From an uncultured bacterium (GTDB lineage Bacteria > Krumholzibacteriota > Krumholzibacteriia > LZORAL124-64-63): a stretch of 64,000 bases of DNA. The stretch spans positions 1-64,000 of the forward strand of contig CALEMW010000139.1 in NCBI GenBank assembly GCA_937910695.1, written 5' to 3'. Under the pieces are notes generated by a model. It ran no database searches, was not told where the DNA came from, and saw only the letters and a program-made list of their open reading frames with translations. Shown piece after piece: positions 42 through 4,273 of this stretch. Made by a program: the position numbers and the translations under genes. Position 1 is the stretch's first letter. Each line of letters starts with the position of its first letter.

Positions 42-67
42 AATGTTGCCCCAACCCCACGTTCAAG

Positions 68-124
68 GAAAACTGAAGGGCCGTCAGAATCGATGTCAGG
101 CTGTTTCGATTCTGACGGCCCTTC
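68..124 (-). terminator. Rho-independent terminator of the selenoprotein gene
   Basis: A 19-bp inverted repeat (75-93 with 106-124) around a 12-nt loop lies just past the minus-strand stop codon at 134-136. Read on the minus strand it is followed by CAGTTTTCC, giving the usual stem plus U-tract. Confidence 0.8.
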
Positions 125-133
125 TGTTTTCCT

Positions 134-2725
134 CTACTTGAGGAGCGTCATCTCCTTGACACTCCGGAAAGCCCCAGAAGAAAGACGCAGGAAATACGTG
201 CCGCTGCCTACAGGCTGACCGCGGCCGTCGTTGCCGTTCCACTGAATGCTGTGAGTGCCGGCGGGCATGTCCTGGTTCAGCAGGACCTTCACCAGACGAC
301 CACTGACATCGTACACCTGCGCGGTCGTGCGGCCGGGTCGCGGCAGCTCGAAGGCGAATGTGGTCAGCGGGTTGAACGGGTTGGGATAATTGGAGTGCAG
401 TGCATACTGCGCCGGAGTATCGCCTGTGTCGCTGTCTTCGACACCCGTCGACACATCTTCGTTCAGCTCGATGAGCTGATCGATAGGCACACCGGAGAAG
501 TTCTGGACCGTACCGGAGGGCCAGGTGATCACCAAGGACTCGACAGACGTCGCGGTCCCGAGACCGAACTCCACATCCAGGGAGTTCTGGGAGCAGTAAC
601 CCGAACCGGCGGTCACTTCCCTCCTCTGGGTCACTCCGCCTGTGGTGAGTTCGACGATCGTGCCGATGGCCGAAACGTTGGATGTCGTTCCTGTCAGCCG
701 CAGATGCAGCCAGTGGTTTCCGTTATCCAGGTCGTTCTGCATCAGGACGTTCGAACTTCCGGCGTTGACCAGATAGAGATCCAGGTCGCCGTCGCCGTCG
801 GTGTCGCCCCAGGCAGCACCACGGGCCGCGCCGCCGGCTTCGTCGATTCCCAGCGGAATCACGACGAAGACGCCGCCACCCTGATTCAGCAGCAGACGGT
901 CGTACTGTCCGCTCTTGGCCTGGTAGAGATCGAGGTCGCCGTCGTTGTCGTAGTCGGCCCAGGCCACGCCGCGGGTGTTGGCTACGGCCGAAGCCGGCGT
1001 GCCGATGGCGGGCACAAAGGAAGTCCCCGCCATGTTGCGGACCAGGCGGTCCGACGAACCGTCGACGGCCGCATAGAGATCCATGTCGCCGTCGTGGTCG
1101 TAATCCGCCCACGCACAACCTGAACCATTGCCTGGATTGTTGATGGTGCTGTTGGAGAACTCATAGAAGCCGAAGGATCCGGCGTTCTCGAACAGACGAT
1201 CCTGGCCCGAACGGGTCGTGAAGAAGAGGTCGGAGTCGCCGTCGTTGTCGAAATCGACCCAGGTCGGGCAGGCGCTGTTGCCGGCATCGTTGACGCCTCC
1301 GCTGGACTCCAGGAAGAGCCAGTCGAGGCCGAGAGGGCCATAAGCCTTGTACAGGACGTTGGCCGCTCCGGTGTTGCAGAGATAGACGTCGACCATGCCA
1401 TCGAGATTGTAGTCGGCCCAAGCCACGCCGGCACCGGGGCCCGTGTTGCCGATGGTGCCCATGTTGGCGCCGACGAAGGAACCGCCGTCGTTGCGGACCA
1501 GCAGGTTGGCCTCGCCGTTCTTCGACAGGTAGTAGTCGAGGTCGCCGTCGTTGTCGTAGTCGGCCCAGGCGGCCGCCATACCGGCTCCGACGTCGGCGGT
1601 CACGCCCGCGGCGACGTTGGTGAAGGTATGCCCGCCGTCGTTCCGCAACAGCAGATCCGCTTCACCGGTGTTGATGACTTGGATGTCGAGGTCGGAATCG
1701 CCGTCGAAATCGATGATGGCGACGCCGCTGCCCTGACCGTTGTAGCCCAGGCTTCCGGTGGCCAACGCAGTGAAGGGACCACCCACGTAAGTACCGGTGA
1801 ACGTCAACGAGCCGTCCTGAATCATCGTGTCGGTGAAGCTCACGGGGTCGGGAGATTCCCAACCGGGAACGTCGCCGTAAGTGACCGTGTAGTCGCCCTC
1901 GTCGAAAACTGCGAGGATGCGCCCATCGACGCCCACGATGTTGTAGCCGTTGGGGCCGGTCAGGGTCCACTCGGCACCGAGGCCGGCAGGAGCGGTGGCC
2001 ACGGTGATCGTGCCGACATAGTTGGGCACGGCCTTGGTCGCCTGAACCACCTGTTTCTGACCGATGCTGCTCTGAACCCAGACGACGACTTCCACATCGT
2101 CGGGCTTCCAGCCGGGATCGAGGGTGAAGGTCCTGTTGATGGACACGGTTTCACCCGGGGCGGTGATGGTCAGCACTTCGTCGGCCAACATCATCCGCGC
2201 CATGTTGGCGTGGTTGTGCACATCGTCTTCGATGACACAGAAATGCACCACGTTGTTGGTGGTGGTCACCGACTGATCCACGGTGATCTGCACGTTGACC
2301 GAGGCGTCGCTGCCGCTCGCCGCATAGGATGCGATCATCACCAGGGGTGATGGGGTCGCCAGATTGCTCGACACGTGGGGATCGTAGTAGGGGAACATGG
2401 TTCCACTGGAGAGCCCGCCCGATTCCCGGTCCACGCCGTCGAAGCTGGCGGAAGGCGTGCCGGTAAAACCGTAGGTGCCGCTGAACTGGTTGCTACCGAA
2501 CGGAGTCGTGTACGGTGATGTGAGGTACCAGGTGATCTGAACGAACTCGGAGCTGTTGTAAGCCGCTTCAAGACCGATGAAGCCCGCGACCGCGGACGGA
2601 CAGTAGGGTCAGCCATCGGCGGTGAACAATTCACCGAGGACTGTTCGAGGAGCTGCGTAGGACGTGGCGACGAATCCAGTCAGCCCAAGGGCGAGCAGAC
2701 TGAGTACGAGAAGCGACTTCCGCAT
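134..2725 (-). CDS. Secreted selenoprotein: Omp28-like thioredoxin domain (Sec39-P-Y-C42) + FG-GAP repeats + ASPIC/UnbV + FlgD-like sorting domain
   Basis: The frame is open from an ATG at 2725 (SD GGAGG, 7 nt upstream) to the stop at 134, apart from one in-frame TGA at 2609-2611. Reading that TGA as selenocysteine gives 863 residues: signal peptide (MRKSLLVLSLLALGLTGFVA), then LGELFTADG-U-PYCPSA, where U takes the first Cys of a thioredoxin-type CxxC. Next come GFTGTPSASFDG and an Ig-like part ending in VVQATKA, as in Omp28-related proteins. Many DNDGDLD FG-GAP/VCBS repeats follow, then an ASPIC/UnbV domain and a C-terminal FlgD-like domain (NYPNPFNP). A GGUC-capped hairpin sits right after the UGA. 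The protein is probably exported to the surface, where the Sec-Cys pair would do thiol/disulfide chemistry (inference). A conventional caller would start at GTG 2434 and lose the signal peptide and redox motif. selA, selB, selC and selD are not in the window. Confidence 0.85.
2581..2611 (-). promoter_or_regulatory. Sec UGA codon with bacterial SECIS-like hairpin
   Basis: After the UGA (2611-2609) the mRNA can form a 6-bp stem, GUCCGC with GCGGGC (one G-U pair), closed by a GGUC tetraloop. The loop begins 18 nt after the UGA. In E. coli fdhF, whose SECIS apical loop also contains GGUC, it begins 19 nt after the UGA. I see no obvious bulged U as in fdhF, so binding by SelB is inferred from loop sequence and spacing. 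Confidence 0.7.
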
Positions 2726-2737
2726 GGAGGGGCCTCC
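2726..2737 (-). promoter_or_regulatory. Ribosome binding site inside a small inverted repeat
   Basis: The Shine-Dalgarno GGAGG of the selenoprotein gene is followed after CC by its complement CCTCC, directly before the ATG. A GGAG-GCCC-CTCC mini-hairpin could mask it. This is a short motif and may be chance. Confidence 0.35.
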
Positions 2738-2869: not shown

Positions 2870-4156
2870 TTACTTGAGAACCCGGACGACCATCCCATAG
2901 CGGAACGGCTCACGCGGCGGGGTCATGTTCCACGACCCGAAGGCGTGACTTCCGTCGGTCCCATAGACGAGCCTATACTCCCCTGCCGGCAGATCCAGAA
3001 CACCGTGATAGCGACGGTTCTTTTCCGCTCCTCCCGCAGGCTCCGTATTGGACCAGTTCATGGCCCAGACGACTTGACCATTGCCGCGATCGAGGATCTT
3101 GCCGCCATCGAACATCGAACGCCGGCTGCCCTCGCCGAGGGCATCGACCTGAATGCGTACGGGATGCTCGAAGGCCACATCGTGGAGCATGTCTGTGTCA
3201 TCCCCGACGCGAAGCCAACGGACAAGAACGGAGGCATCGAGGTCGGGGTCGAAGGTGTCGAGAATCACCAGGGCATTCGCATCGACCGCATCGACGAGCA
3301 GACCCCATTGCCGGGGGTCAGCCGGTGGGCGATCATTCCAGTCATCCCAGGCGTGTGAGGAATCGGTGGCGTAGGATATGCGGTAGGTACCGGGATCAAC
3401 AGGCACTTCCCCACTCCAGTGCGCGTTCTTGACGGCTCCGCCGGCGGCCGAGCATCGGGTCGCATCCATGACCCAGATGGGATCGCCGGTCACAGCGTCT
3501 TCGATCCAGCCCATGTCGAAGAGACCACCGTCGCTGCGCTCGCCGCAGACAGCAATGCGCAGGGTCGTCGGACTCAAGACCCGGACCAGTGATTCGCGGG
3601 TTTCCGCGTCTCCCACGGGCGCCAAGACTACCTGGGCCTCGAGAGGCGGCATGGCATCGATGAGCTGGATCACGCCCCCCGTGGTTTCGAGTCGGAAACT
3701 GCAGCGGGCGGCGTACAGATCCGGATTCTTACCTGGATCGTCGCTGCGAAGGATATCGGCCAGATCGTTGAAGACCCGACTCAGCTCCTTGAAAGGATGG
3801 GACGATCTCCCCCAGTGTCCCCCAGGATAGAGATAGGCCACATAGGCTCCGGCGTCGAGCCTCACCCTGTCATCAGCGCCGATCAGATAGCGTTGTCCTG
3901 CTGCAGGTTTCCAAGCAGACTTGTCCAGGGACCAGACCGTGCGGCCTTGATCGTCGACGATCCAGGCTGAAGCGTAGAGATCATTGCTGAATTTGCCTCT
4001 GATACCCACGGCCTCCACATCGACGTCGCTCACGCGGTCAAGATGAAAGGTCTGCATCTCGAGGACTCTGGCGCGACGGCCGACGAGTTCGACGCTGCCG
4101 GCCGTTGCCGTCGCGGCCGCGATGGTCAACAGTCCGATCATGCAGAACGTTTTCAT
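2870..4156 (-). CDS. Secreted protein of unknown function with internal repeats
   Basis: The start at 4156 (MKTFCMIGLLTIAAATATAG) has GAGGAG 6 nt upstream and begins a clear signal peptide, giving 428 residues. I do not recognise the family. A similar unit recurs: (K/E)N..(W/Y)(S/H)G.(V/L)..(D/P)(P/A)G.YR(I/L).Y.TD(S/G)SHA is seen twice (for example YRLVYGTDGSHAFGSWN near the C-terminus), with a weaker third copy near residues 80-110 (LDAGAYVAYLYPGGHW). Trp and Asp are frequent. The protein is all-beta in appearance and without the FlgD-like sorting domain of its neighbours. It is divergent from the trp operon, with about 230 bp between them. Confidence 0.75.
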   Translation of the reverse strand: MKTFCMIGLLTIAAATATAGSVELVGRRARVLEMQTFHLDRVSDVDVEAVGIRGKFSNDLYASAWIVDDQGRTVWSLDKSAWKPAAGQRYLIGADDRVRLDAGAYVAYLYPGGHWGRSSHPFKELSRVFNDLADILRSDDPGKNPDLYAARCSFRLETTGGVIQLIDAMPPLEAQVVLAPVGDAETRESLVRVLSPTTLRIAVCGERSDGGLFDMGWIEDAVTGDPIWVMDATRCSAAGGAVKNAHWSGEVPVDPGTYRISYATDSSHAWDDWNDRPPADPRQWGLLVDAVDANALVILDTFDPDLDASVLVRWLRVGDDTDMLHDVAFEHPVRIQVDALGEGSRRSMFDGGKILDRGNGQVVWAMNWSNTEPAGGAEKNRRYHGVLDLPAGEYRLVYGTDGSHAFGSWNMTPPREPFRYGMVVRVLK

Positions 4157-4273
4157 TGCGGTCTCCTCATCGGTCACTTCGGTCTCTCAACACGTCGTCC
4201 CCATACGCCCGGAACGGGCAATCGTTGCAACCGGACGGAAGTTACCCTGGAAACCACTGCATGTCGACAGAGC

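Follow-up and report, generated by a model that had tools for sequence, protein, structure and literature searches.

A predicted surface selenoprotein of Krumholzibacteriia combining a divergent Omp28-like thioredoxin domain with an FG-GAP/ASPIC propeller

The window, i.e., the whole stretch of 64,000 nucleotides analysed here, carries on its minus strand a gene of 863 codons with one internal TGA. Read together, sequence, structural models and analogy make it highly probable that this gene encodes an exported selenocysteine (Sec) protein, a selenium version of the thioredoxin-active protein HBP35 equipped with a propeller scaffold and a type IX-like surface tag. Selenoproteins of the Omp28 kind are themselves known; what appears to be new is a divergent Omp28-like Sec subfamily in which the domain is fused to an FG-GAP/ASPIC propeller. 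The gene belongs to a well-conserved selenoprotein branch, documented here in an uncultured phylum, and its domain fusion was unseen in the other Omp28 relatives examined.

A long reading frame with a single in-frame TGA

The gene and its associated signals are as follows:

134 to 2725, minus strand: selenoprotein gene of 863 codons, with start codon ATG at 2725-2723, stop codon TAG at 136-134 and a single inner TGA read as Sec; architecture and TGA are common to the homologues
2733 to 2737, minus strand: Shine-Dalgarno sequence GGAGG, 7 nt 5' of the ATG; similar sequences also lie 5' of most homologues
2651 to 2725, minus strand: putative signal peptide, residues 1-25 (end approximate), read from the sequence; the hydrophobic N-terminus is kept in homologues and forms a low-confidence helix in the full-length model
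2609 to 2611, minus strand: UGA codon 39, predicted Sec, residue 1 of the motif UPYC
2582 to 2597, minus strand: candidate bacterial SECIS (bSECIS) stem-loop GUCCGC-GGUC-GCGGGC, starting 11 nt after the UGA, with 17 nt from UGA to loop and with covariation
65 to 134, minus strand: rho-independent-type terminator hairpin directly 3' of the stop codon; 80-nt fold of -48.2 kcal/mol, 19-bp core stem followed by a T-rich tail

Translation of the minus strand showed exactly one in-frame stop in the frame, the TGA at 2611-2609, surrounded by the residues GELFTADG-U-PYCPSAVAGF. The TGA, the Shine-Dalgarno sequence and the signal peptide had been proposed by an earlier sequence-only reading, and all three were recovered when the strand was read again. 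The long open frame that this reading described after the TGA was also found, with 824 open codons instead of the 821 counted at the time. As it had anticipated, a standard caller truncates the gene: ORF calling with table 11 yields only 134-2434, from a GTG, and both the signal peptide and the active site are lost. At the terminator site, a consensus scan returned a shorter stem only, on the plus strand.

The TGA is conserved and pairs with cysteine in relatives

To assess the distribution of the gene, its N-terminal 236 residues were compared with 80 genomes of the phylum. Besides the window gene, this search returned 28 genes at 39-51% identity, all from the same family of Krumholzibacteriia, so that carriers make up 29 of the 38 genomes examined of that family. 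Each of the 29 genes, which are of the UPYC, UPFC or UTYC type, contains a single TGA in the matched region, and in the codon test the TGA occupied the column of codon 39 in all 25 aligned homologues. Sixteen homologue loci taken with their surroundings (L160-L175) match over essentially all 863 residues and keep the whole architecture. Full-length identity is 41-48% in 15 other genomes, each with the same lone internal TGA; the named relatives are metagenome-assembled genomes. One orthologue, from Candidatus Krumholzibacteriia isolate BB39 (L020), has the same sequence as that of a genome of the same family (G051).

A long frame interrupted early on by a lone stop resembles a gene with a point mutation, and this one is located at the extreme beginning of its contig; an error of sequencing or assembly, or a pseudogene in decay, could be imagined on these grounds. 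Yet 29 independent genomes, with genes at 39-51% identity, all have the identical TGA, and the 820 codons downstream are open and conserved. Because of this conservation, we rejected a broken gene or a read error, whose probability we regard as negligible.

In the more distant, Cys-form relatives, Cys stands exactly in the column of Sec39: the motif is CGPC in L131, L132, L133 and L145, the last from the same genome as the window gene. More widely among relatives, the Sec forms UPYC, UGYC, UTYC, UVPC and UPSC and the Cys forms CGPC, CGYC, CNPC and CIPC alternate across genomes. The sequence-only reading had pointed to homologues lacking a Cys at this residue as evidence against Sec; the homologues were found to carry either Cys or Sec there. 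In a tree of 82 domains, built without the curated NF045500 seed sequences, at least six changes of Sec/Cys label are forced (starred branches), and the window gene groups with its 28 orthologues in a single Sec-only clade (support 100/99). Within this clade UxxC is fully invariant, no member lacks Sec, and the active site is also conserved on its cis-Pro side.

Selenocysteine machinery and a SECIS-type hairpin

Absence of the Sec machinery had likewise been named as decisive against the selenoprotein, and all four components were found by profile search in the genome that carries it: selA (442 bits, C233) and selD (359 bits, C232), both over their curated cut-offs, selB (336 bits against a cut-off of 242, C106) and tRNA-Sec, i.e., selC (68 bits against 47, C217), which ARAGORN also called as tRNA-SeC with anticodon tca. 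Of the 29 genomes carrying the selenoprotein gene, 24 have a detectable tRNA-Sec; it was not detected in the other five (G038, given as 100% complete, G045, G051, G055 and G062), presumably owing to fragmentary genomes.

A bacterial SECIS-type hairpin, a feature that the sequence-only reading had proposed to look for, follows the UGA. It has 6 bp and a GGUC loop, folds at -9.0 kcal/mol for 16 nt and lies within all the published bSECIS limits (PMC13188914). Across 22 homologues, pairing was kept in 98.4% of cells, compared with 24-64% in slid controls, and three of the six stem pairs showed compensatory changes (UA/CG/GC, UG/AU/CG and CG/UA). The covariation score was reached by none of 500 shuffles; it rests on a short stem that is partly locked by the protein sequence. 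Codons 44-46 are among those with the lowest synonymous variability (ranks 1, 7 and 8 of 82 comparable columns). A stem-loop score restricted to bSECIS geometry beat synonymous shuffles in several genomes (p = 0.018 for the window), these per-sequence p-values being modest and not independent. Minimum free energy over the whole tested segment did not discriminate from synonymous shuffles (p 0.35 for the window sequence), which leaves the bSECIS-restricted score and the covariation as the discriminating tests. L101 and L103-L106 have a weaker stem, displaced by one base, and the same bSECIS rule gave no good stem at this place in L110.

The UGA could in principle be read as another amino acid, through a reassigned code or ordinary readthrough; leaky UGA readthrough exists, and the support for Sec comes from sequence. 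Against this, TGA also serves as the terminator of homologues L163, L165 and L167, relatives have Cys at the site and not Trp or Gly, the genome has the complete Sec machinery, and the UGA is followed by a covarying SECIS. On these points we rejected code reassignment, and decoding as another residue is very improbable. The machinery, the conserved TGA, the Sec/Cys pairing and the SECIS together strongly support the selenocysteine reading. Under this reading, the ribosome would meet the UGA at codon 39, SelB with Sec-tRNA would be recruited by the GGUC-loop hairpin 11 nt downstream and insert Sec, and translation would run on to codon 863.

A thioredoxin-like head on a propeller with a sorting domain

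The domains of the predicted protein are as follows:

2351 to 2650, minus strand: thioredoxin-fold domain, residues 26-125 (boundary approximate), with UxxC at 39-42 and a cis-Pro-type TP at 90-91; AlphaFold2 pLDDT 94.4; profile matches to 1fo5 and 1nho
2027 to 2491, minus strand: Pfam Omp28 match (PF11551), residues 79-233, covering the end of the thioredoxin fold and a beta-sandwich
671 to 1777, minus strand: FG-GAP repeat region, predicted beta-propeller, residues ~317-685; PF13517, 5e-36; all-beta repeats in the model
470 to 670, minus strand: UnbV_ASPIC domain, residues 686-752; PF07593, 2.5e-22
179 to 358, minus strand: C-terminal FlgD-Ig/type IX-like sorting domain, residues 790-849; PF13860, 1.5e-9; also matched by TIGR04183

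Pfam thus gave the order Omp28, FG-GAP_3, UnbV_ASPIC and FlgD_ig, the first of these being marginal, with a score of 35.1 bits for a gathering cut-off of 34.9. The UxxC thioredoxin, the Omp28-like region, the FG-GAP propeller and the sorting domain had all been read from the sequence beforehand, and they are borne out by Pfam, AlphaFold2 and TIGR04183.

For residues 24-245, the AlphaFold2 model (pLDDT 94.4) shows a beta-sandwich placed after a thioredoxin fold, whose elements come in the thioredoxin order beta-alpha-beta-alpha-beta-beta-alpha (E6-12, H19-32, E38-44, H52-61, E69-72, E76-79 and H88-99), the motif lying where helix 1 begins. A family profile matched the small archaeal-type thioredoxins 1fo5 and 1nho across both the UPYC/CPYC-type motif and the cis-Pro GTP segment; in this profile alignment the GTP motif falls on the thioredoxin cis-Pro, in sequence register only. 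A single-sequence search of the PDB gave nothing useful, the structural matches coming from profile and fold searches. In the remainder of the protein, the Asp-rich DxDxDG loops of the FG-GAP region are kept in 16 of 16 full-length homologues. Confidence in the full-length model is moderate (pLDDT 83, pTM 0.68), and the placement of the head relative to the propeller is not readable from it.

Relation to HBP35, Omp28 and known Omp28-type selenoproteins

The top match to a solved structure in the fold search was HBP35 of Porphyromonas gingivalis (PDB 5y1a, E 1.8e-11, TM 0.77), followed by the Omp28 protein of the same species (PDB 2r2c). The motif is in register with HBP35, positions 4-39 of the profile aligning with 36-75 of the 5y1a chain. 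The thioredoxin activity of HBP35 requires C48 and C51 (PMC2907840), and the protein is a type IX cargo that reaches the surface via its C-terminal domain (PMC3120885). In both proteins, a beta-sandwich comes after the thioredoxin fold, and the C-terminus carries a type IX sorting domain. HBP35, however, has 344 residues, Cys-x-x-Cys and no propeller, whereas the window protein has Sec-x-x-Cys, and the two share ~18% identity. The beta-sandwich also resembles PF11551 and the P. gingivalis Omp28. The Omp28 lipoprotein model NF033782 fits poorly (18.9 bits for a cut-off of 150), and no lipobox was seen in the signal sequence.

The sequence-only reading had called the selenoprotein new-looking and knew of no described Sec form of an Omp28-like protein with FG-GAP and FlgD-like domains; the Sec form of an Omp28-like protein as such was already described. 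NCBIfam model NF045500, "Omp28-related selenoprotein", corresponds to GOS_C, which was found in 2008 by Zhang and Gladyshev with 74 Sec sequences and a Trx-like fold (PMC2398784); a 2026 review lists the model for "hypothetical protein GOS_C" (PMC13188914, Table 1). The window protein shares with this family the Trx-like fold, the UxxC motif with Sec first, a bacterial SECIS after the UGA and the existence of Cys homologues. NF045500 is moreover its best Sec-specific model (E 2.8e-13, residues 19-232), and one could regard the protein as an ordinary GOS_C member with extra domains and nothing new. Its score of 50 bits is nevertheless far from the curated cut-off of 200, a level attained in none of the 80 genomes of the class; the last 110 positions of the model (267-377) are unmatched, the window protein is fused to the FG-GAP/ASPIC propeller and sorting domain, and its clade is separate and Sec-only. 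We therefore find it doubtful, while granting it some weight, that the protein is simply an ordinary member of GOS_C. The curated Omp28_seleno model in fact misses large related groups.

The separate subfamily that we favor is also set apart by its architecture. No FG-GAP run was seen in any other Omp28 relative examined, whether of the Sec or the Cys form; these relatives include the genome's own two Cys paralogues, C220 and C143. As far as we could look, the FG-GAP/ASPIC fusion is confined to this clade. The tail of the protein has a different set of relatives: for residues 315-863, alignments at up to 45% were obtained with FG-GAP/UnbV_ASPIC proteins of Krumholzibacteria, Eisenbacteria and others. 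These match mainly the propeller and tail and not the selenocysteine domain, the exceptions being the orthologue L020 and a protein of Gemmatimonadota (L072). Literature searches on Omp28 or FG-GAP together with selenoproteins returned nothing relevant, and we found the fusion described nowhere.

The Cys-form paralogues mentioned above differ in length and motif: C143 (L207:15-3062) has CTGC and 1016 codons, and C220 (L145) has CGPC and ~690 codons.

Predicted export and function

The C-terminal domain scores 31.8 bits with TIGR04183, over the cut-off of 23. A homologue of the SprA-type translocon is present in the same genome (C22, 472 bits summed, cut-off 200), as are ~90 C-terminal TIGR04183-type sorting domains, here outside Bacteroidota. 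From the sorting domain and SprA, we infer a type IX-like export to the cell surface.

The protein is most likely a surface-displayed selenium thiol-disulfide oxidoreductase resembling HBP35. We propose this function because of the fold match to HBP35, the activity of HBP35 and its nature as type IX cargo, the sorting domain, the ~90 such domains in the genome and SprA. Once the signal peptide had been cleaved off, Sec39-Pro-Tyr-Cys42 would lie in the thioredoxin fold at the N-terminus. For the substrate and redox direction that we infer, the Sec39 selenolate would attack a substrate disulfide (or a sulfenic acid or peroxide), and Cys42 would resolve the selenenyl-sulfide. The FG-GAP/ASPIC propeller probably serves as a scaffold that binds Ca or as a platform for ligand binding, and the C-terminal domain would act as a type IX-like sorting tag bringing the protein to the cell surface.

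The main role of the selenoprotein could instead be binding, of heme, metal or a surface ligand, or in adhesion, via the propeller and beta-sandwich, UxxC being only a regulatory or folding element. FG-GAP/ASPIC domains are known chiefly in adhesion or secreted proteins, and about two thirds of the protein lies outside the redox domain. HBP35 itself binds hemin outside its thioredoxin domain, through residues 135-344 (PMC2907840). The full invariance of UxxC, the retention of costly Sec in all members and the conserved cis-Pro side argue against it, and we consider a primarily binding role unlikely.

On a wider reading, the protein would represent an undescribed, obligately selenium-dependent family of large cell-surface redox proteins, with Sec and never Cys in its known members, whose thioredoxin head on an FG-GAP/ASPIC propeller would face extracellular substrates after type IX export; such a branch of extracellular selenoenzymes would be special to one family of Krumholzibacteriia. 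We see the chances for and against this wider proposal as evenly balanced. A testable prediction follows from the findings on this protein: a type IX-like route would carry selenium-based disulfide chemistry out to the cell surface.

Genomic neighbourhood and other selenoproteins

We then considered the genes located near the selenoprotein gene. An ORF of 435 codons without Pfam match (2870-4177, minus strand) lies just upstream on the same strand, and trp genes lie beyond it. Homologues of this ORF were found near the selenoprotein gene only in genus g14 (L169 and L172), and the trp genes did not recur at homologue loci. An operon or partner-gene reading was rejected on this basis, no partner gene being conserved beside the selenoprotein gene across the homologue loci. 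A crude scan of the window for further TGA-interrupted coding frames found nothing convincing beyond the selenoprotein gene.

A second group of Sec-containing Omp28 proteins, of ~670-700 aa and without propeller, was observed in the same family of genomes (L141, L142, L143, L146, L147, L153 and others). Its motifs are UGYC, UTYC, USYC and UPYC, after SATW or FTST. This group falls under the NF045500 cut-off and apparently has no named model; the same bSECIS rule gave no convincing SECIS for it. The Gemmatimonadota protein (bin29, L072:5907-8261) is also an unusual fusion: a Sec-form Omp28 with the motif UVPC, it has a dockerin type I domain in place of the propeller, along with FlgD_ig.

A literature search found no paper on selenoproteins or selenocysteine in Krumholzibacteri(ota). 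Detection of tRNA-Sec in 69 of the 80 genomes makes the use of selenocysteine nearly universal in this phylum. In the genome of the window, SelD is itself a selenoprotein (C232:2992-3912, L018), with the TGA at the catalytic position (RFAKSAG-U-AAKLSPEG).
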